From contig NW_024881626.1 in NCBI RefSeq assembly GCF_019059575.1, forward strand, positions 1 through 64,000: DNA of 64,000 bases, read 5' to 3'. Source of the stretch: Amphibalanus amphitrite (Eukaryota; Arthropoda; Thecostraca; Balanomorpha; Balanidae). A program made the translations under genes and the position numbers. The notes under the pieces were generated by a model that was not told the origin of the DNA, searched no databases, and saw only the letters and a program-made list of their open reading frames with translations. Positions 10,088 through 62,300 of this stretch are shown in pieces. Position 1 is the first letter of the stretch. The number at the start of each line of letters is the position of its first letter.

Positions 10088-11455
10088 ACTCCTACTCCCC
10101 ACTGGGGGGGGGGGGCAGAATCTGCCCCCTCCCGTGTTTCGCAAATTACTTTTAACGCGTTACGCCAGCGACGTCAAACTTTCAGCACCTTATCATGCAT
10201 CAATTTAAGACGTTTCCTGAAAACTTGAGCGAAATCCGTTAACCTGACCTCCTTGACCTGACCTCCACCAGAAAGTGACCTAAACCGTACCTGATGGTCT
10301 TATAACCAACACCATTGAGTTGGAAATGAAAAACTGGTCATAAAACGTGCATCGCACAACCTTAGTAAAGTTGGGTTCATATGGTGACCCTTGGTGACCT
10401 TTGGTGACCTGACCTGTGACCTGACCTGGTATGACCAGTGACCTCTAATAGCAACATATGTACTAGACAACTGACGCCCTATCGCTGATTTTCGACAAAA
10501 TGCGTTTTACTCGGTGTTATAGCGCTTTCCGTAGAAGCCCCGTGAACTCACCGTTCCACATTTTATCTTTGACCTGACCTGTGACGTCATTGGTGACCCC
10601 GAGGTCAATGAAATTTGGTTTCCTTCGACAAATTTGACAGGGCTATCGAACGCCCTTTGAATTTGCCGGATCCGTCCAGTAGTTTCGGAGATACGGGGGG
10701 GGGGGCAAAAAAATGACCCCCCCCCCACCGGGCCGGGAGGCCCACCGCCTGCTGGGTTAAAAAATGTGTAAGTTATTCAAAGTTTTATGACATCACGACA
10801 CACAATTTTTTTGAAAAATAATTTTTTTGGAAGTTCTAGACCTCATACGGAAACAAAAATAACACCATTCGATTCGCCGTGAAAAAACTGCATCAGACAG
10901 ACACCTTTTTAGGCCTTACTAAACAACTTCAAAATTTGACCTCACTTGACCTGATCTTGACCGGACCTCGACCTGAAAATCATCCAGATGTGGTCCATAT
11001 TACTTATTGAGTGTGGCTATTGAATTATATGAATAAAATGACCCATAAAACATGTGTCGCACATACCCTTTTCTATATTTCGTTCTAAGTGACCTGACCT
11101 GACCTTAGACTTCACCTTTGCATGATATTGCATGCAAAGAATATTGTCTTGGTAGCCTAAGAACACGTTTTAGGCAATCAGGCTCAGTCCATTCTTCGGC
11201 AACTACGGTGCAAGGCCGATACTGTAGAAGCCTGCATTTTGTACCCTTGACCTGACCTTGACCTGACCTCTGACCTTCTTAAGCACGAAAATTTTGGCTC
11301 TTAAGATCCGCCTTGTTGAGAAGAGCTTTCGATTGCCGTTTTCCCCGTCTTTCTACGACCATATCGGTTCGGAAGTTAAACAGGGGGGGGCAGAATTGCC
11401 CCCCCCCCCCCAGCAGGGCGCGTATGGCTGAATAGCCCAGCGGGGCGCGGGTTAA
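10088..11455. mobile_element. Mosaic TTAA-family MITE copy
   Basis: The right end is GGGGCGCGGGTTAA (TTAA 11452-11455), preceded by a G-run/C-run hairpin. The left end at about 10090 carries the matching poly-G, CAGAATCTG, poly-C hairpin but has lost its terminal TTAA. Sequence 10757-11455 is the reverse complement of parts of the 28832-31369 copy. The middle (10239-10760, ending GCTGGGTTAA) belongs to a second subfamily that also occurs at 17421-17470 plus 24189-24637. The interior contains many GACCT/AGGTC repeats. It is either a recombinant or a nested insertion that lost flanking sequence. Confidence 0.65.
10239..10760. mobile_element. TTAA-element fragment preserving an uninterrupted insertion site
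   Basis: Bounded by TTAA at 10239 and 10757. Around 10262-10340 it contains, without interruption, the sequence into which both the LTR element (13934-17420) and the CR1-like element (about 17466-24188) inserted elsewhere in this window. It therefore serves as a paralogous empty site for both. Confidence 0.6.
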
Positions 11456-17574: not shown

Positions 17575-18903
17575 ATGTATACTCAGGAGGCGGCTGCAGA
17601 GAGGCTGCAGCCGCCTCCTGAGAGGCAGCAGCCGCCACCCGAGAGGCAGCAGCCGCCACCCGAGCAGCAGCAGCCGCCACCTGAGAGGCAGCAGCCGCCA
17701 CCCGAGAGGCAGCAGCCGCCACCCGAGCAGCAGCAGCTGCCACCTGGGAGGCAGCAGCCGCCACCCGAGAGGCAGCAGCCGCCACCTGAGCAGCAGCAGC
17801 CGCCATCTGAGAGGCAGCAGCCGCCACCTGAGAGGCAGCAGCCGCCACCTGAGAGGCAGCAGCAGCCGCCACCCGAGCAGTGGCAGCCGCCACCCGAGCA
17901 GCAGCAGCCGTCACCTGAGAGGCAGCAGCCGCCACCCGAGAGGCGGCAGCTGCCATCCGAGCAGCAGCAGCCGCCGCCACCTGAGAGGCAGCAGCCGCCA
18001 TCAGAGCTGCCACAGCCGCTATCTGTGCCTTCCCAGCCGCCGTCCGAGAAGCCACTGTCACACAATCGGTCGCCGCCGACTGAGCCATCTGAGCCTGTGC
18101 CTGGACCATCATTCCTGGCGGTCACTCTGATGGATGTGATGGAGGCAGTGCGACTGACACAGCTTAAAATGGACAGGATGGCTGAAGACATCAGTCAGGT
18201 GAGGCAGCTGGTTCATTCATTGCAGCAGCAGAACGGCTGTCAACCTGAACGCTCTTCAGCGTGTCATGCCCAGTACCCAGCAGAGGCTGACACACAGCAG
18301 CTACTGACAGCTGAGGACTTATCTCGCCAACACCGGACGACCGCTGGAGAACGGCACGCCGGTCGCCAGCCCGCTAATGCAGGGACGTCTTTGCTGGTGA
18401 TCGGTGACTCCAACGTGAGGCGCCTCGAGGGAATGAGTGAACGCGGCCCCAGTAAACCCGCTTTTCACTCCATCTCAGGTGCCACTACCGAGCACGTGAG
18501 ACAGGACATCAGCCAGGCCATACGCAAATGTGGTGCTAAACGGGTTGTTATACATGCTGGGACTAATGACGTAACTCGCAAAGGATCCGAACTGGTCGCA
18601 AAGGACATATTCAGTTTAGCTGACCAAACTAAGCGTAGGGATGGTGTAAGCGATGTGTTTATATGTAGTATAATCCCAAGAAAGGACACCGGATCCTTCA
18701 TCTACAGCAGATCTGAGAGCGTCAACAATAGGCTGCGCACTCTCTGCTCACAGAGTCCTGACATCAAATTTATTGACTTGCGGCAGGCTCTGCACAGCTG
18801 TAGATTCAGCGGATTAGCGAGAGACGCAGTTCACTACAATAGGGAGAGTGCCACGCAGACCCTCAGATCGATCTTACAGTTGACAGGAAATACTTTTTTA
18901 TAG
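17575..18903 (+). CDS. LINE ORF1: Pro/Gln repeat region plus SGNH hydrolase domain
   Basis: 442 residues. Residues about 5-150 are roughly twenty copies of a 7-residue repeat (PPERQQP), encoded by a 21-bp tandem repeat at about 17600-18010. A linker with MDVMEAVRLTQLKMDRM, possibly a short coiled coil, follows at about 185-215. The C-terminal part (about 272-435) is an SGNH/GDSL-type esterase. Block I is GDSN (about 277), block III is AGTNDV (about 328) and the block V Asp/His pair is in RDAVHYN (about 420). Such domains occur in ORF1p of CR1-like LINEs; their substrate in the retrotransposition cycle is not settled. The first ATG lies in the scrambled 5' junction, so the native N-terminus is probably missing. 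Confidence 0.8.
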   Translation: MYTQEAAAERLQPPPERQQPPPERQQPPPEQQQPPPERQQPPPERQQPPPEQQQLPPGRQQPPPERQQPPPEQQQPPSERQQPPPERQQPPPERQQQPPPEQWQPPPEQQQPSPERQQPPPERRQLPSEQQQPPPPERQQPPSELPQPLSVPSQPPSEKPLSHNRSPPTEPSEPVPGPSFLAVTLMDVMEAVRLTQLKMDRMAEDISQVRQLVHSLQQQNGCQPERSSACHAQYPAEADTQQLLTAEDLSRQHRTTAGERHAGRQPANAGTSLLVIGDSNVRRLEGMSERGPSKPAFHSISGATTEHVRQDISQAIRKCGAKRVVIHAGTNDVTRKGSELVAKDIFSLADQTKRRDGVSDVFICSIIPRKDTGSFIYSRSESVNNRLRTLCSQSPDIKFIDLRQALHSCRFSGLARDAVHYNRESATQTLRSILQLTGNTFL

Positions 18904-37634: not shown

Positions 37635-40600
37635 TCACTCCAGGCCGAACCCCTCGGCGTTGCAGATGGCCACGGAGAGTTTCTGTTTGAGCGTGGCGCG
37701 GTCGCGGTAGGCCGGCAGCACCAGCTGGTTGAAGCAGGTGTGTGCCAGCGGCAGCATCTCCTCCTTGTTCGGGTACAGGCTCACCTTGAAGGTCATTTCG
37801 CCCATGCCGCCCACGGGCACACGGTCGCTGCCCGTGACGAACAGCAGGAACCGCTTCTTGTCTTCGGTGCTGAACTCCTCCAGTGTCGCCCACAGGTTCC
37901 TGCAGAGTAGGCAGCCGTAGGTGTCACGGATACTTCACAATTTAGGACGGCAGTTGGGGGGGGGGGGGGATGAACAACACTGTACTAACAAGTTCTTCTT
38001 TAGTGGAGTGTCAATGCACTTATTGCCTATTGCCACCCGCAGCTTCTACCCGTGAGACTGGTATTGTGTCGTCTGGCCATTTTTGTTTTCACTCACTGTA
38101 TGACCACTTGGTTAGGTGTGTGGTCATCGCACATTATACTGTATGACTTGGTTGGGTGTGTAGCCGTCGTATACTCACTGTATGACCTCGTGGTTTGGTG
38201 TGTAGCCGTCGTATACTCACTGTATGACCTCGTGGTTGGGTGTGTAGCCGTCGTACTCGGTGACCTTTTTCAGCTCTGACAGGTTGATGGTGGGACAGCC
38301 GCAGACCACCATCTCCACCTCCTCCGGCCGAAACATCTGCCAAAGTCGATAGGACAGGAGCGGTTGTGACGAAAACGGTGCGATTTGTTTGTGGTCAACC
38401 AACATGACGAGTGAACACCAGAGCTCCTGCCTCCTAATCTTTTCACTAATCTTCCCTCTTTCTATTCAATAGTTTTTCTTTTAGCTCCGATACGTCCGAA
38501 GCCTGACGTCCCGGCGTTTGACGCCCCAATGACGTCTGCTCGCGCGCGCGTTCGTACTCACCAGCAGGGCGTTGGAGGCGCCGAGCGTGTGGAAGCCGAG
38601 GTAGAAGGCGCGCACCTGCTCGTAGATGGCCGTGTTGAGGATCCAGTCCAGGTAGAGACGCACGTACTCGTCCCGGTTCTCGTTGGTCACCGGAACCTCC
38701 TCGCCGTTCTCTCGCAGGTTCACCGTGATCACCTTCCCAAACTCCTCGATCGAGACGTGGAAGTTGAGGCACAGGTCCTCCTCGACGTTACCCTCGTAGG
38801 CCAGCAGCTCCTTCAGCCCTCTTGCTACCTCCTACACGGCCCAGAGATGTGTGAGAGAAACACTTGAAAGGCATGGCATGAATAAATGCGCTGATACCGG
38901 CGGAAGAGGATTTGACAAAAGAATATGATAAGTTCTGTGAGGCCAGACGCATTTTGTCATTACTTGGTACCATTTTCGTCGGTTAATTCGCTTGTTTATA
39001 TTCAACATTCGTTGATCGACACAGTCTCCGTATTAATATGAAGTTGATGGAGAACGTTTTGAGATGTAAAGGGAGCAGTGTTAATTACGAGCATGTTTAC
39101 CAATAAAAGCATGGGGACTGCCGTTCTTTAGAGGTCGACATCAGGTAGCGAAATAGATCCTCAATATTTGAGGATAGCCGATAGGACACCCATAGATACT
39201 TGCATAGGTTTGGAAATATAGGCACGCCGCACGGCCTGGCACAAACCACAGATGGCCGTATTTTTACTAACCGGCATGATCTGGGCCAGGTCTTCTAGTG
39301 TGGGGTGTTTGGCGATGCCCACGGCCACGTGCTCCATGGTGGGCACCACGGGCGGGCTCAGCAGCTTCCTGCCGGCACAGACAACGAACACAAGTCAGAC
39401 GCCACAAATAGGTAGCTGATATGAGACAGCGAACAGGTGGCATAAACAGCTATGTCACAAGAGGCAGACGGCACACACAGCGAGGAAATATGAGACGATA
39501 CAGCTGTGGTAAACCGGCGGGACGTAGTGGGAATCTTTGGAATTGTGGAGTCGACATATGACAAGCGCCAAGATCTCTGAAATGGGTTGTGGCGTATGGA
39601 TTATTATCCATCGACACTCCAATCACAAAGCAGCGAAACAAGTGTAGTAATGTGTATTGGGATTGTACCATATACCTAGTTAGTATATTAGGATTATCAC
39701 AATACTCTTAAGCTTGTTTTTCCTGAAAATTTCCCTTAAAACATCGCTAATCAGAGCTTCCAGGTAGCATCCGTCACGCGGTGTAGCATTCCGCACTCAA
39801 AAGTCAAAATCGTTATACAACGAGGGAAATATAAATTCTGGTACCTACATATCGCTGCGCAACACGGCCTGCCAGCATGTGGCTGGGCTATGCGGCACAG
39901 CATGCATCAGGCGCTCTCGTAAGTGCCATCTTGTGGAGAGAGCGAGAATTAACAAGCATCTGAGCCATGCGGTACAGCATGCGGCAGGCGCTCATGACAG
40001 TGCCATCTAGCGGAGAGAGAGGAAACTAACAAGCGCCCGACTGAGCCATGCGGTACAGCATGCGGCAGGCGCTCTCCTCAGAGCCATCTAGTGGAGAGAG
40101 CGGAAACCAACAGGCTTCGACTGAGCCATGCGATACAGCATGCAGCAGGCACTCTTATCAGAGCCATCTAGTGAAGAGATTGGAAACCAGCATGGATGCA
40201 AGTAAGCTATGCGGCACAGCATGTAGCAGGCGAGGCCAAGCAGCTATTGTGGAAAACGGAAACCTTGTGGGACGGTAGTAGAGATTAAAGGAAAAGGGCC
40301 ACCTTCGTGAAATATGAAGATATCGTTGTTTTTCATTTTGACATTATTATTTTTCATTTTCTTTTTAAAACTGGTGCCAGAAGTGCACAATTCGCGAAAA
40401 AGTATTTAAAACTATTTAACATATTGGTACTATGTTGATACACTCTATATGGCACCTACTGTATGATGGCATAGCGATGACGTCACACTCAAGCCAATCA
40501 GCGTTCAGAAGACAGACTCGTCGGATTGTGTCAGATAAGCTGATTGGTTAAAGCTGAGCTGGTTGGAGCTGAGCTGGTTGGAGCTGATTGGTAGAAAACC

Positions 40601-43600: not shown

Positions 43601-46600
43601 CTCTATCGCCAGCGTGTTCGGAGCTATGGCGAAAAAAAAACCTATGGGGGGCGGCACCGGCCCCCCCCCCTCGGCCGGCGAGGGTTAAGGTAGAAGGCAT
43701 GCCCCCTCTTACTTCTAGTGGCCCAACCGACCTTTCCGGGTCTTCCAATGATCATTCGAAAGAAATGTGAGATGAAAAGGTAGTACATCATCCTGTTTAT
43801 CGCTTGCACGCTGCAAAGCATCTTAAAATATGTTAGAAATGAGCAAACATTTGGAAGCTGTCATAGCTCCGGTTCCCCAGCAATCCGCCTTTTTACGGCT
43901 AAATATAAATATAGTGCACACAGTTCAGTAATAGTGCAAGCGATTTCGACAGTTCGCCATAGACAGACTACATATGCCGTACTGTCGAAATCGCCTGTAC
44001 TATTACTGAAAAGTGTGCACTGCCGCCTAAAGTGGGCGTAAAAAGGTGTAGTTATTTAATCGATGATGGCAATACCTGAACGCACAGCGTAACATGGCCA
44101 TATATTTGGGCTATTATCGCTTCGATTTATTGTTCATTGCGGTCAAGGTGTGACGTCACTCCTCGCGATATGAACTTCAGATGACCCGTCGTTAATTCAC
44201 TGCAGTGCTGCAGCCGATCGGTAAAGCTGACGACCAATGCGTGATTCAATCAGTAGCGATTATTCATTTAGCCACAGCATTACATCGTGAATGTGGATCG
44301 CTTCATCGTATTTTATCATCAGAAATTATTCTCGCCAAGAACCAGTTTTAGGTAGTACAAGTGGTCTATCAACATCGGCATTTGGTAACCGGTATGAACT
44401 GGTGTGGTACGCTCGTGGCAGCAGATTGCATGCATGGTGTTCATGAATAAAATAGGCATCAAGTCATGACCGTGAATAGTCTGGATTTCGATTAAAGTTA
44501 GGTGTGGTTACCTGGCGCGATTGGTTCAACATACGTGTACACGTTCACGGTGGATATTTGTTTGTTTTGTTTGGAGCGAGCTCCTCCAGCTTTAAAGGCC
44601 ATTGCAAAGCTATGGGATATTAGGATAGGGCGTAGACACGAGGCTTTGCGGGACAACGACAGTGAGCCGAGGCGGCAGAGACCGACCCGGTGAGATCGGA
44701 TTGCTCCGATGGGACAGTCCGCCCGTCGCTCATACGGTCACCCCGGAGAGGATGCTAACGTGTCCTGGTGTGGACTCGACCTGAGACCTCAACTACTGGC
44801 TGTCTGGGGGGGGGGGGGGCGCCAGCCCGGAAAGGAAACGTGAGGGAATGCGGATGGCTTTGTCCTGACGATGGTGAGAATGGATGCCCGGAGGATAATT
44901 ATATTGAATAGGTGCTCTTATATAGCTGTCAGCACGGCTGCTGAAACAACAGAAAAGGGTTCATTGTGCTTCATCTTAGGCACGATGCAAGATGCTATAT
45001 GCAGTATGCTATATGCGATAAGAAAGATGCTAGGATTTCTTTACACATAGCAAAGCATTGACCGATATGTTACTGGAAATATGCTCGTCGTGTCTGAATG
45101 AAATTACAAACCGTTAACTATGTATAACGAGAGACCTATGCCTTTATGCATTCATCCTATGAAACAAAGACCAAAAGATGCAGGGTTGAACGCTCCGTTC
45201 TCACCTTTGTGAGGATGGTGCGCTTGGCCACGATGCTGAGTATGAACGGGTACTGGCAGTAAGAGAAGCGGTCGGGCCGGTCGGGCGTCTGCCAGTTGGC
45301 GTACTCCTGCATCAGGTCCACGTGGTCCAGCGCGTGGTTGTAGAACTCGGTGTACGAGATCAGCGCCGGACTGGCAGCGTTGTTGGCCGCGTCTGAGAAC
45401 CGAACGAAGACACACGCTGAGTTTCACCTACCCACTACTGCTGGCAGTCACGCTATGTATCGTAGACGAAAGTTAAATGCTTGGGATGACTTTTCAGGCT
45501 TCAGTTTGTACAATGTGATATTAGTGGAAGATAAAAGGGCATTAATTTTTTTTTACCAGATTTTATTGATGTTCGTACACTGGCAATGTATATTGATTCT
45601 GTTACATCATGCCCATTACCCCATGTTCATGTTCGGACTCCTCTGTCGAGAAAAAAAAAATAACACTAGTCCTGCCTGCACCCAACGCGCCGCCATGCGA
45701 AATAACGATTTACTGGCGTGGTGAACATCGACGATCGCCGCGGAAAAGGTCAGCGTCGTCATTACAAAGACGACTGATCCAGTCGCCCGCCGTCACCGCC
45801 GCGGTCAATACCGGACTTCAGCGCGTAACCTTCAGGGCAATGGACTTAGCTGTGAAGTGACCAACGCGTACCCTCCAGCGCAGTGGCTTTGCTGTGATGT
45901 GACCGCATTCATCGAACGACCAACCCCGCCCCGTTTTTATGCGTCTGCGCGGTGACCTGACCCCGGCCTCCACTCACTGATGAGCGCCAGCACTTTGATG
46001 GCGGTGGGGATCCACCAGCGCGACTTGTTGAGCGGCGGCAGAGACGCGTCCGCCGGCGGGAACTGACGGATCGTGATGAACTGGATGATGTGCGAGACGA
46101 TCATCTTCAGGCGCTTCGCCTCCAGACTGCCGCAGGCGCACAAAGAAGACAGGGTTTAATCTTCTACCGTCACACGGAGATAAATACAATAATATTGAAA
46201 ATGAATTGAATTACATGTCTATTCAAAAATTGTTCGGTAGGTATAATGCGTGAATTATGTGCTAACTATATCACGTATGCCTAGTTATATGAGCCGATTC
46301 GGCTTCAAAAAGCTGGAGGCGGCAGGCCAATATTAATCCTCAGTTGACTGAGCCGGCACTTGTCGGTGTGAGCCGGCACTGAGTCGGCGCTGGGTCGGCA
46401 CTAAGCCTCATCTCACCATCTGAACCAGCGCATCAGGATCTGGTGGTCGCCGTTGGAGAGCGTGGTCAGCTGCCTCAGCAGGTGCGCAAACACCGTGTAC
46501 GAGCTCTGTGGCGCGAACAGCGGCGACTGCACCAGGATGAACAGCGCTCGCACCTCGTCCTTGTGAAACAGCCTGTCGACGGGGGTGGAAAACGTCGGGT

Positions 46601-49600: not shown

Positions 49601-52600
49601 CATTACTCAGTTATCTGTAACGCTAGTGCTACTTACAATCTACTTTCGAGATTAAGAGGCCATCCAGATCTTGTATCCAAAATTAAGAAAACCTTAGCTG
49701 AGAATGTAAATTCACAAGTAGTCAGTGGCGGATCCGGGGGGGGGGGGCAAAATGGGCCTTTGCCCCCCCCCCCAAACGGCATAATTTTAACATTACGCCT
49801 ATGGACGAGGCATGGAAAGAGTCGATAAATTGTTATGGTTTGCCCCCCCCCCCAAAAAAAAAAACTCTGAGCTGGATCCGCCTCTGCAAGTAGTTAGCTC
49901 ATTCCTGTCAGCTCAAACATTTGTCATTTGGATTCACGACCCGGCAACAGAGCAGTGAAAGTTCTTTGTCATGTGCTTCATGGGCCGATTCCACGTCATT
50001 ATTCATGTGCGGGTAACAATGAGGCTCGATGGAGCCAGGTGAGAGTCTGTTCAGTGCTGTTACTTCTGTTGCCAGGCCGCTGGGTATGGGCGCGTGGCGC
50101 CGGCTCAGACCTGTCCTTTGTCGGCGTGTGTACCGTCGGCCGGGGGCAGCTGACACTGGTTACACCCGGTTCAACAGGACCCGCGCGAATGGCGGCATGG
50201 GTGACCGCCGGGTGCGCCGGCACCGGCGGTTGGTTCTCGTATCCACCTCGCCTTGAACGGGCAGGCGCGGCACCTGACCTGGCCATTGGCGGCGCCGCCG
50301 CGCCGGGCTGAACCGGGTGGCACCGAAAAGACAGGCCCCACAGCAGCCTGAATGGTGCTACCTCCTCACCTATTACACAGGTGCCGCTGTACCGATCGAC
50401 GGCTTGGTACTGCATCAACGGTGGCGGACAGGGTAAATGCAGCAACGCCTTTGAAGGCAAGACGGAAAGCTTATGGGTCGTGCAAAGGCGAGATATTGAG
50501 TGTTGCTATTCACTTGGATGTGTCAGCATGCCTACACGAGGCTATCGGCAGGGTTAGGTACTAATGTGGCTGACGAAGTGTGGCGGCAATAATGGGGAAA
50601 CGTGATGGGGTTACATGATTAGGATGATGATTAAATGAACCGTTGTTAAGGGGCTGTCATCTATCTTCATTGATGATGCTGATGGGTCGGATAGCTAGAA
50701 ATCTGGAATGCGCAGGCCATGGTCGCTTATCTATTTTCATTCACTATCTATTTACTATTATCTATCTATTCACTATCTGTTTCCATTCTCCACTTATCAC
50801 AAATATTTTAATAAGAATGGTTATAACTATTTTGAAATAGGTGGGCATCTTTTTCATCATATTTGCTGTTTTATCTGTTATTTTTAAATTTCTCGTTTCG
50901 TCTTTCGCTTTCACGCACAAAAACCATTTTCGGATCGTACCTCTGAAAAGTTATTAAAACATGCTCTCCTCCTGGAGGCGCTTGCAGTACCCACTTCCTT
51001 CTTCGGCAGCACTCATACACAGAGACTCCATTCCTTTCCCGGTGGACGCCAGTAAGAGCCCTCCTCTCAAACCCCCAGTAAGGACCCCATCTCCCCCTGC
51101 CCCCCCCCCCCTTCTGAGCGGCACTCACAGGAACTCCTCGCGGCGCTTCTGATGAACCGGGTAGACTGGTCGGCGCAGGCTCTGGCTGCCTGTTGACGAG
51201 CTGAGCAGCGACTCGATGCTGCGGGACGAGCGGATCGAGTTGGCCGTGCTGAGACGGCTGCTGGAGGTGCGCGGCGGGGTGGTCGGCTGAAAACGGGTAC
51301 CATACACTCAGCGGGGCGCCGCTGGGGGCGGCATTAACTCAGCAGGGTGCCGCTGGGGGCGGCACAAACTCAGCAGGGTGCCGCTGGGGGCGGCACAAAC
51401 TCAGCAGGGTGCCGCTGGGGGCAGAAGAGACTCGGCTTGATAGGTATGCTCAGTCTGTAGCCAGACCTGACAAGACAATGGGATGTAATGCCCACCATCT
51501 GGTGGTTAGTGGAAATAAACGAAGTAATAATAATAATAATAATAATAATATTTTGAATACTCCTGCCCGACTTAGATCTTAGTTGCGAATCAAACAGTTC
51601 ACCCTTCGTCTAGAAAGAGTGTATTACAGAGAAGGACTTACAATGGGCGATGATGCGGGGTGTATAACCTTGCAAACATCGAGCGGCAATGCAAGCGTAG
51701 AAACGGACTTGATAATGGACAGCAGTGCGGGTTTCAAGAGCGACTCACAATGGGCGGCAGAGTGGGTTGTAGAAACTTGAATCAGCATATAATGGGCGAC
51801 AGTGTGGGGTCCTAGAGACTTGTAATGGGCAGCGGTGCGGAGTGTGCGGAGCGACTTTGAAGACATGGTGGTAGTGTCAGGAGCGACTTTGACTGGTCGG
51901 TGGTGCAGAGACAACATAACAATGGGCGGCAGCGCCAAAGGAGGTAGAGAGCGACTTACAATGGGCGGCAGTACGGGAATGTAGAGCGCGACTTAGAATG
52001 GGCGGCAGCACAGGACTGTAGAGAGCGACTTTATAATGCGCGGCAGTGCGAGATGTGATGAGCGGCTTACAATGGGCGGCAGTGATGATGCAAAGAGCGA
52101 CTTACAATGGGTGGCAGTGCGGGGATGTAGATGAGCGGCTTACAATGGGCGGCAGTGATGATGCAAAGAGCGACTTAGAACGAATGGCAGTGCGGGGATG
52201 TAGATGAGCGGCTTTTAATGGGCGGCAGTGATGATGCAAAGAGCGACTTACAATGGGTGGCAGTGCGGGGGTGTAGATGACACTGGCCATGGCCAGCGGT
52301 GACAGGTTGACGCCGAGGTGGGAGAGCAGGGCAGCGCTGATGGCCGTGGGGCCGCGCCCCACCTGCGCCTGTTGACAGCCGCACACGCGCACACGCACAC
52401 GCACGTGCAGTCACACGCAGGCAACGTATCTGCTCTATACGTCCTATGGCAGGCGGTCCACGATTAGCTACCATTGACTAATTGGAAAATAAATATTTTT
52501 GCTGCGCTATTTTTGCAATAGCGTAAGGCCATAAACGTTTTAGATTTAAATCACTTTCACAGCGTTTACGTAGAGTCGATTTGGTCTTCACGGAATTAAT

Positions 52601-59302: not shown

Positions 59303-62300
59303 TTAGTCCTTCTTCTGCGCCTTGCGGCGGAGGGCGCGGCTGCGCACCCCCAGCATCCGCTCGTAGTAGTAGTTGACCATGACAGATTCGGGCAGGTTAC
59401 GGTTGCCGAAGCCAGCCGCCATGCCCTGGAAACAGTGGCACAGGTCAGGGGCCGTCCGTCAACGCAACTTAATGTTCAGCGGGCACAATAATCATACATG
59501 GAAATAAGTCCTGGATCAACTTTCTGAGCCATGCTGGAGTCAACTTGATTGAGGTGACGTGACAGCGAACTATTTATAGGACAAAAAAAAAGTACAGACG
59601 AAAATCAAAATAATGACCAAAACAGCTCCACATTGTTTTAAAAACACATTGGTCTCAGTTGCTCTACTCTAAGACATAAACACTTAAATAAGGAACTAGG
59701 AAGGCAGTGCACCAATCACTGAGCCATTTCACCAGTTCCCGTGCGCACCGCATCCCTGTCTACTCCTCACCTGGATCTTGTGCGATGGGCAGCCGAACGT
59801 CTCCGTCTCCAGGCCGACCGTGCGCAGCTGGGCGCGGACAAACTGCTCGGCCGACGGCACGAACAGGCGTGGAGACGTGTACTTGGACATGTTGGAGCAC
59901 ACGAAGGCCGGCGTGGTGCTCTGCACGATGACGCCGCGGGCGCGTACCTCGGTGGCCAGACCGGAGCTCAGCTGGGCCACGTACGCCTGGCGGAGAGTGG
60001 ACGGACGGTCATACAGCGAACGGCACAGGCAGTGTCGTAGGTGGTGGTGTGGGGGACTCCCGCCTGGGATCTCCGAGGTCAGCAGTGACTCGTAGCTATG
60101 GTGTTATAACACTGTCTCGCCAAAACATACAGAGCCTGCTTTGACGAACACAACACCTGGTTCTATTGAATTGGAAGCCTTGGTATTGCAGCATTGCAAC
60201 AAACATCATGGGTATTTGCTGTGTTTCCTCTGCCTAGCACTCAAGCAGCTCTACTCAACGTGCACATAACATGGTTCTATGAGCGGCGTTGAGAAGCTAC
60301 CCAACAGAGATTACCCAACAGTTATCCCGGCCCGGTTACCTGGGAGCTTACCCTGGTCCAGTTACCCTGGTGGTTACCCTCCCAGCCGGTTACCCTGGTG
60401 GTTACCTTGGTAGCCGAGTACTGGGTGAGAAGCGCGGTCGGTTACCTTGTGCCGGTCCGGTTACCCTAATGGTTACCTTGGTGGGCGAGTACTGGGTGAA
60501 GAGCGCGGTCGGTTACCTTGTGCCGGTCCGGTTACCCTAATGGTTACCTTGGTGGGCGAGTACTGGGTGAAGAGCGCGGTCGGTTACCTTGTGCCGGTCC
60601 GATTACCCTAATGGTTACCTTGGTGGCCGAGTACTGGGTGAGGAGCGCGGTCGGCATCACGGCGGAGAACGACGACAGGTTGATGATGACGCCCTTCTTC
60701 TTTTCCAGCATGTGCGGCAGCACGAACCGCGTCATGGCCGTCACCGAGAGCGCGTTACAGTTGAGGATGTTCTCGGTGAACCTGGGCACGGGGCGGGAGG
60801 GTGTCACCGGAGGGGCGCGAGGGTTCGGAGCTTCGGCCATGTCGACCACCACCACCGGAAAAAAGAATCTTTAATTGATCGAATTGCGTTAAGTACAGCG
60901 ATAACCAACAAAAACCGAGGGGTGATAAAAGACAAGCTCTCTATTCTCCTCGTGGCCTTAAAGACGTTTATTCGTACGAATTGGCCTCCGCTCTCCCTTC
61001 AGTCAAGCCTTTCGCAGTGGACCCAAGAGCCCGGCGCAAGAAAAGCCAGTCACGGATCAGCAGATAAACGACCGGCGAACGCCACTTACTTGTCGTCGGG
61101 AATTTCGGTGAAGTACTCCGGGTGGTCGTAGTTCATGCCCACGTTGTTGACCAGCACGGCGATGTCCAGACCCTCCAGACCTTGTTTGACCGGGCCATAC
61201 GCCGACAGACCCTGGGTGAAGTCCATCGCCACCGTCTTCGTCTTCACACCGTGTTTGGTTTCTGCGGCAAGAGTGGTGAAAAGGCTCAATCCAAATCCAC
61301 ACGACACATTGGATTGGAGAGTACTCTTACGTATCTTCTTGGGCACGCGTTTATTCATATTGGTTTTTGATTCAGTACCATTAAAAATAGCCTCTTTACC
61401 AAAGTTGCGGCAACTGCAATCTATTGTCTGCTCCAAAATGTCACACAAAGATATCGTTACAGCTATTCGTATAAGACCCATTCCATCTGTATAGCACTTC
61501 AAAGTAGGGTGCAGGCACGCAGCCGGCACAGCAACTTACCAATCTCCTTGGCGACCTGGTCGAGCTTGGACTGCGTGCGGCTGATGAGCAGGACGTTCAG
61601 GCCGCGCCGGGCGAACTGAGGGCGGACAGACACACACGGTGAGCCGAGCTGGCAGGCGCAGATCCAGCACGGATCCCGGTAGCTGGCACGGCCATTTTCA
61701 ACACAGCTGACGATGCTAACCATGTTGAAGAATAAGATAACTGACACAGCCCACCGACACACAAGAAGGGAATGCCATGAATATGACGCAAGGCCTAATG
61801 CAATCTTACGCAGTGATTGCAAGGTAAGAAAGTGAATGTTCCAGCAGATCAGTTTCGTTGTGGTTAGAAACACTGCAAAATGAATGTCAAATCATTAAAA
61901 AAAAAAATCAAACCAATTGAGCGAACAAGGATAGGTAAAGAGTGAAAACAAACGAGCAGCAAAACCTTAACACATAATATGAATAGTCAAGTTGTTTGTT
62001 AGAACAAACTCGGCTATGTCCTTCGGCAGTGTTATAAGACAAATCGCTGATCACACCAACCTCCATCGCGTAGGCCTTGCCGATTCCATCGGTGGCACCA
62101 GTGATAACTGAAAAGCAAACGTCAGCTGTTACTAACAAACGATGAACGCTAGGATGATGCTATAATAGGGCGCTTAATACGGTTGAAATTCATTAAAACG
62201 TATTTTTGCATTCATACGTTGCGAGAGAATAGTCGATCAAGTTTAGGTTCTTTCAAGACAACAGCATATTTACTCCTACGAAACGACGCATGTGAACTAC

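Follow-up and report, generated by a model that had tools for sequence, protein, structure and literature searches.

Genes and arrays at the locus

The window analysed here is a stretch of 64,000 nucleotides (64 kb) from Amphibalanus amphitrite (contig NW_024881626.1 of assembly GCF_019059575.1). An exon map built within it contains two minus-strand genes, a HECT-ligase gene with 17 exons mapped from 53717 to 37638, and a short-chain dehydrogenase gene with 7 exons mapped from 62613 to 59304. The internal junctions of both genes are all AG..GT, and their joined reading frames are open. The product of the HECT gene matches the Pfam HECT family over positions 2-305 of 306 (E=1.7e-95) and aligns with UBE3A (PDB) across residues 360-803; the dehydrogenase product matches Pfam adh_short (E=2.1e-42). 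The HECT gene was called HECTD2 in an earlier note on this DNA, and the dehydrogenase gene is presumably HSD17B12-like.

The focal array adjoins exon 4 of the HECT gene. The exon ends in ...CTGCCACCCATT/GTAAGTCGC at 52252/52251 and is followed by 17 unbroken units down to 51618; the array described in the earlier note is real, while its count of about fifteen units becomes 17 by unit alignment. The units are 24-72 bp long, mostly 33-39 bp, and each starts at the donor position, with TRF reporting periods of 35 and 73 (scores 287 and 464). Among the exon-proximal units, 38- and 35-bp types alternate to give a 73-bp higher-order unit, the copies of which are 95-96% alike. The exonic share of the unit is 29 nt (52280-52252), and the repeat search places 52203-52280 inside the array. 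The tail of exon 4 differs from unit 4 by one base, and the tail plus unit 1 matches units 4+5 at all but 1 of 64 positions; in the unit alignment, distal units are further diverged than exon-proximal ones. The GT is kept in 7 of the 16 downstream copies, in line with the observation in the earlier note that several copies have intact donor dinucleotides, and is absent from the other 9. From the sequence, we infer that the first donor (52250-52251) is the one used in splicing. A separate 31-bp array (51306-51422) stops 20 bp short of the next exon and leaves the acceptor outside. Together, the focal and 31-bp arrays occupy 751 of the 965 bp of the exon-4 intron.

Table 1. Exons, donors and tandem arrays of the two genes in the window
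Feature	Position	Strand	Basis
HECT-gene exon 4 (e4), last 29 nt in repeat unit	52252..52368	-	AG/GT boundaries, phase-consistent joins to adjoining exons
Focal array, 17 imperfect units	51618..52251	-	TRF, repeat search, unit alignment
Authentic exon-4 donor GT (ATT/GTAAGT)	52250..52251	-	exon map
In-frame donor-like copy	52142..52143	-	frame test
Separate 31-bp array in exon-4 intron	51306..51422	-	TRF
HECT-gene exon 17 (e17), evident source of 38-kb array	38221..38336	-	exon map, UBE3A alignment
Second (38-kb) array, 42-bp unit x 4 (exon tail + GTGAGT)	38091..38258	-	TRF, copy alignment
Dehydrogenase exon 5 (h5), evident source of 60-kb array	60619..60781	-	exon map, adh_short match
Third (60-kb) array, 71-bp unit x 3.8 (exon tail + GTAACC + intron spacer)	60332..60654	-	TRF, copy alignment

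The same design recurs at two further sites, as had been claimed, at 38091-38258 and 60332-60654. These were thought to lie in two neighbouring genes, but the 38-kb array shares the focal HECT gene, and the three arrays span two genes. In the 38-kb array, the exon tail TACGACGGCTACACACCCAACCACGAGGTCATACA and its donor occur four times, exon included; these copies are not identical, one having GTATAA for GTGAGT. Exon e17 is of phase 2, and reading through its donor gives CAG TGA, i.e. an immediate stop. In the 60-kb array, the exon tail ending in ACCAAG and the following GTAACC also occur four times, exon included. The h5 tail encodes QYSATK, which we take to contain the adh_short-domain motif called YxxxK. 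All mapped window junctions were tested for echoes of the exon tail; z reached 16-18 at 3 of 22 donors and no more than 3.1 at the 22 acceptors. Since the tails of e17 and h5 encode conserved protein (HECT aligned to UBE3A, and adh_short), the exon is clearly the source of the 38-kb and 60-kb arrays. The earlier suggestion that the arrays were seeded by an exon end plus its donor is supported, the evidence for an exon source being clear for these two arrays. An Rfam search of the window at the gathering score gave no match to a known RNA element, and such an element was rejected as the identity of the repeats.

Several other repeats are present in the window. An 81-bp intronic array on the minus strand (39883-40232) has units with CACTAGATGGC-type motifs, which presumably resemble the CTCF core. 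With up to 2 mismatches the motif has 6 window matches where 1.94 are expected, and 4 of the 6 fall within this array, from which the search pattern itself was drawn. Direct half-site repeats like TGACCTTGACCT, e.g. at 11253, 25881, 29013 and 43015, occur 15 times in the window when up to 1 mismatch is allowed, compared with an expected 0.29, and are probably parts of a dispersed repeat family. A degenerate 11-bp array without exon sequence lies just past the e9 donor (46347-46402). Retrotransposon-like reading frames, their translations judged by eye, are found at 17599-18000 and 166-2567, and the former contains a 21-bp coding repeat (PPEQQQPPPERQQ) in about 19 copies by TRF.

The locus on a second contig

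The assembly (807,550,619 bp in 2644 contigs) contains a collinear copy of the locus on contig C613, in pieces 88-98% identical to the window, most of the length being 93-98% identical. This contig carries all three arrays. On it the 17 units of the focal array follow one another as in the window, with a 1-bp indel and substitutions at scattered places, so that unit number is unchanged between the two copies of the locus; the donor dinucleotides of the copies are identical except in unit 16, where neither locus has GT. The 38-kb array on C613 has a 7-bp insertion repeating the donor, and the 60-kb array consists of the exon and 3 tail copies in the window and of the exon and 1 copy on C613, which shows copy-number variation. 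Many of the kinase, myosin and chaperonin matches likewise fall into near-identical pairs, and the C613 copy therefore probably represents the other haplotype.

Although tandem repeats are prone to assembly error, the identical order of the focal units on C613, differing by substitutions and an indel, leaves an assembly artefact with a negligible probability. The possibility of such an error, raised in the earlier note, was excluded for the focal array by this second contig.

Exon-boundary repeats in other genes

For the survey of other genes, exons of kinases, myosins and chaperonins were located by Pfam searches of the assembly. The 79 exons (40 + 26 + 13) were hand-picked, not random, with partial matches and with one member per near-identical pair where such pairs were recognised. 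The 90 nt around each exon end were compared with the next 500 bp and those around each exon start with the previous 500 bp, and exon middles were examined too; an echo was counted at a score of at least 40, printed shuffle maxima being 20-31. An acceptor echo at L074 (score 32) is under this threshold and was not counted. Both members were included for three similar pairs: the sisters L050/L051 (74-85% over the listed aligned pieces), L054/L078 (99.8%) and L043/L044 (84-93%, in longer pieces).

Among all 79 exons, echoes were found at 8 ends, 3 starts and 1 middle. Without L051 and L078, which nearly duplicate L050 and L054, but with L043 and L044 both retained, ends echoed in 6/77 and starts in 2/77 (middles 1/79). 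Recurrence beyond the focal locus, proposed in the earlier note, is therefore borne out at 6 of 77 exon ends, all in kinase exons: by family, positive ends were 6/44 for kinases, 0/20 for myosins and 0/13 for chaperonins. Since all six belong to kinases, the genome-wide frequency is uncertain. Nonetheless, duplications of this sort seem to arise readily at a number of genes in this genome.

Checked by eye, the positive exon ends repeat the focal design (L050/L051, L054/L078, L085, L094, L044 and, in degenerate form, L092), and the kinase exons concerned end within the kinase domain match. In L050/L051, the exon end ...ATCAGTCCAGAGATCCTCCGC/GTGAGT is followed by 19 and 13 further copies. L044 (1495-1660) has a single perfect 39-nt copy of the kinase-exon tail and donor, 119 bp downstream, and its sister L043 is without this extra copy; by this comparison L044 is likely to be a nascent case. 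Acceptor-side cases are L092, L098 and L051.

Three observations from the searches may be added. The kinase exon of L092 (1066-1540) has copies on its acceptor and donor sides alike. In L042 (1871-2098), a 45-bp array takes in the end of an open frame and CCTGTGAGAG, and may be either a donor-side repeat of the present kind or a repeat of the stop-codon region; its exon end being ambiguous, it was left out of the counts. In the myosin search, relay-region exons were repeated within single myosin genes, an arrangement that presumably resembles the alternative exon clusters of arthropod muscle myosin.

Fate of the extra donors

A donor matrix was made from 19 non-array donors, and downstream GT sites of the three window arrays scoring at least 3 bits were counted. 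Sixteen donor-like sites passed. The reading frame would be kept and open at only one, which adds 108 nt or 36 residues; an extension of 36 residues had been noted before for a donor at 52144, and its frame is indeed open, with the GT at 52143-52142. The other 15 of 16 lead to a premature stop.

The change of each column in the focal array was counted as parsimony steps on the all-unit alignment, using trees that omit the tested column and its neighbours. In this post hoc test of a single array with related copies, donor positions +1 and +2 took 8 and 6 steps, the first and second of 35 columns, against a mean of 2.48 for the others. They remained first and second (once tied second) when poorly aligned units were dropped, whereas with the six nearest units alone +1 merely ties for first with two other columns. 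Position +1 is also the least conserved position of the junction across the focal units. Units 2+3 and 4+5 have 6 differences in 73 bp, 3 of which fall on the 4 GT bases (P 0.0012). Because the donor dinucleotide of the focal copies changed more than any other position, it is suggested, though not proved, that competing donors were disadvantageous in this array and that nearby decoys were silenced there.

In other arrays the GT is mostly retained. It is kept in 18/19 and 11/13 copies of the arrays in two sister copies of one GEK/MRCK-like kinase gene, and in 15/16 copies of the arrays other than these and that of e4, i.e. 6/6 in a CaMK-like array and 2/3, 1/1, 1/1, 2/2 and 3/3 in the other five non-e4 arrays. 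General selection against decoy donors was thus rejected, the focal array alone supporting it and the other arrays keeping GT. General selection for in-frame donors was rejected as well, not being seen in the window arrays with 1 of 16 in frame.

Position of the duplications relative to the donor

An echo profile was constructed with 40-mers around 82 placed donors. Exon tails echoed in 7/82 (8.5%), or 4/60 without the window's own donors; frequencies along the intron were about 6-10%, and exon sequence 41-160 nt upstream echoed in 1/246. The profile therefore has no exon-tail peak above the intron level over these 82 donors, and the exon tail is intron-like in repeat frequency, as would be the case if duplications across the junction carried little cost. 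Repeats are dense here, and echoes are seen for random non-coding 90-mers as well, in 15/522 cases in the window and 61/741 in the survey flanks, these tests being mutually non-independent.

Array starts were also considered. Of the TRF arrays with a period of at least 20 that start from -60 to +240 of the 82 donors, 5/8 start in the exon tail, compared with a uniform expectation of 17.6% (P 0.006); for a period of at least 10 the figure is 5/10 (P 0.02). Three of the five are the window arrays that prompted the question, and without them 2/5 remain (P about 0.21). In the window taken by itself, arrays contain 3 donors where 1.2-1.5 are expected (P 0.09-0.16 by circular shift and random placement). 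Echoes at exon ends were compared with those at exon starts, giving 7/82 vs 2/86 (P 0.09), or 4/60 vs 2/63 without the window.

Donor placement was changed once, as the first rule left L050 out of the positives; in the revised placement the search range was widened, the score limit lowered, the array donors left out of the matrix and the exon-proximal site chosen. Under the first rule, tails echoed in 6/74 and starts in the exon tail were 4/7 (period at least 20, P 0.021) and 4/9 (period at least 10, P 0.057). Seventeen survey donors are unplaced in the profile, among them those of the first exon of L094 and the second exon of L092, which have donor echoes in the survey.

Discussion

The earlier note knew of no named class for such repeats, but one exists. 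Tandem repeats across exon-intron boundaries were described in amphioxus globin and Adh3 genes and named mirages (PMC3087553), the genes being Adh3 and the globins BflGb6 and BflGb9 (PMC3087553), with PGBD5 and TnC added later (PMC3902484). Mirage units are 10-160 bp long, many though not all contain splice signals, and clusters are homogenised (PMC3087553, PMC3902484). Haplotypes differ in length with splicing apparently undisturbed, and intron gain from mirages has been proposed (PMC3087553). A relative is the exon-end minisatellite of human IFI6 (6-16), the units of which supply donors used in transcripts and so create isoforms (PMC4526556). In human segmental duplications, internal tandem repeats, minisatellites of about 30 bp on average, alter splice boundaries (PMC2812944).

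The window arrays share the following features with mirages. The unit spans the exon-intron boundary in all three, unit lengths are within the range (35-73, 42 and 71 bp), splice signals are found in many but not all units (7/16 in the focal array, most elsewhere), and homogenisation is evident (73-bp units 95-96% alike, 1 difference in 64 positions). Length instability between haplotypes is seen in the 60-kb array (3 vs 1) and the 7-bp insertion of the 38-kb array, if C613 is, as inferred, the other haplotype. The arrays are thus a genuine, well-preserved example of exon-boundary minisatellites of the mirage kind, which is known but little studied. Mirages were reported from cephalochordates, whereas the present arrays are in Amphibalanus amphitrite, and no mirages by that name were recognised outside lancelets among the open-licence papers listed in literature searches. 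The present arrays also differ in that sampled donor-side cases outnumber acceptor-side ones, though not significantly, and in that the focal donor dinucleotide has decayed. While the repeat donors of IFI6 function in transcripts, here a single one of the 16 copies could leave the frame intact. The repeats of segmental duplications were compared across recent paralogs and tied to novel introns, and intron gain by tandem genomic duplication likewise yields new introns; here existing introns grow.

We hold with good confidence that the arrays are mirages, arising by junction-crossing duplication that is tolerated as the authentic donor survives, followed by intronic expansion and decay. The first unit of each array is the exon end itself, and the later units consist of the tail, the donor and some intron in tandem. 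A founding tandem duplication would have crossed the 5' splice junction; with the upstream exon and donor intact, the extra copies would become intron and be tolerated; slippage or unequal exchange may then expand and homogenise the copies, and old copies would decay. Nearly every copy in the window would disrupt the reading frame, which makes it most likely that the copies are by-products and do not work as donors.

Other explanations may be considered. In the earlier note, three cases in a short stretch were taken to argue for a mechanism, and the recurrence stands (6/77 exon ends), but donor anchoring does not reach significance in the window. A donor-targeted process, such as donor-anchored slippage, R-loops or RNA-templated repair, or gene conversion, that seeds duplications at 5' splice sites would account for the excess of array starts in exon tails and for exon ends echoing more than exon starts; however, both signals shrink without the ascertained window, the circular-shift and random-placement tests give P 0.09-0.16, exon tails echo no more than the intron plateau, random non-coding sequence echoes often, and exon starts echo as well (L092, L098). 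We regard such a process as unlikely. Selection on redundant donors was also proposed; copies retained in this way would serve as spare or alternative donors, on the pattern described in human IFI6, and the open frame of the +108 donor and the GT retained in the GEK/MRCK-like and CaMK-like arrays are consistent with this. Yet 15 of 16 donor-like window copies give a premature stop, and in the focal array it is the donor positions that change fastest, with half of the differences between neighbouring 73-bp units hitting the GT bases; this proposal is not upheld and appears very improbable.

For exon 4 only, the order of events might be reversed, the array being older and the exon having gained its last 29 nt via a donor inside it. 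No Pfam family covers exon 4, which gives no date for the tail, and the tail is only one base away from unit 4. Against this, conserved exons are clearly the source of the two sister arrays and also of the kinase cases, where exons end inside the kinase domain match; we consider the reversed order rather improbable. A broader form of the mirage explanation is that exon-end duplication is pervasive, affecting several per cent of donors and refilling introns with decoys, and that the decoy GTs of old arrays are disabled by splicing selection. This is put forward tentatively, as a possibility that is somewhat doubtful at present.

If that is so, the arrays would amount to natural mutagenesis that records how 5' splice sites compete. 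By placing many donors next to the authentic one, the arrays provide a natural experiment on spliceosome choice among near-identical sites. If common, such arrays would steadily lengthen introns and give rise to alternative exon ends and to errors of annotation, and mirages would be shown to be no peculiarity of cephalochordates.
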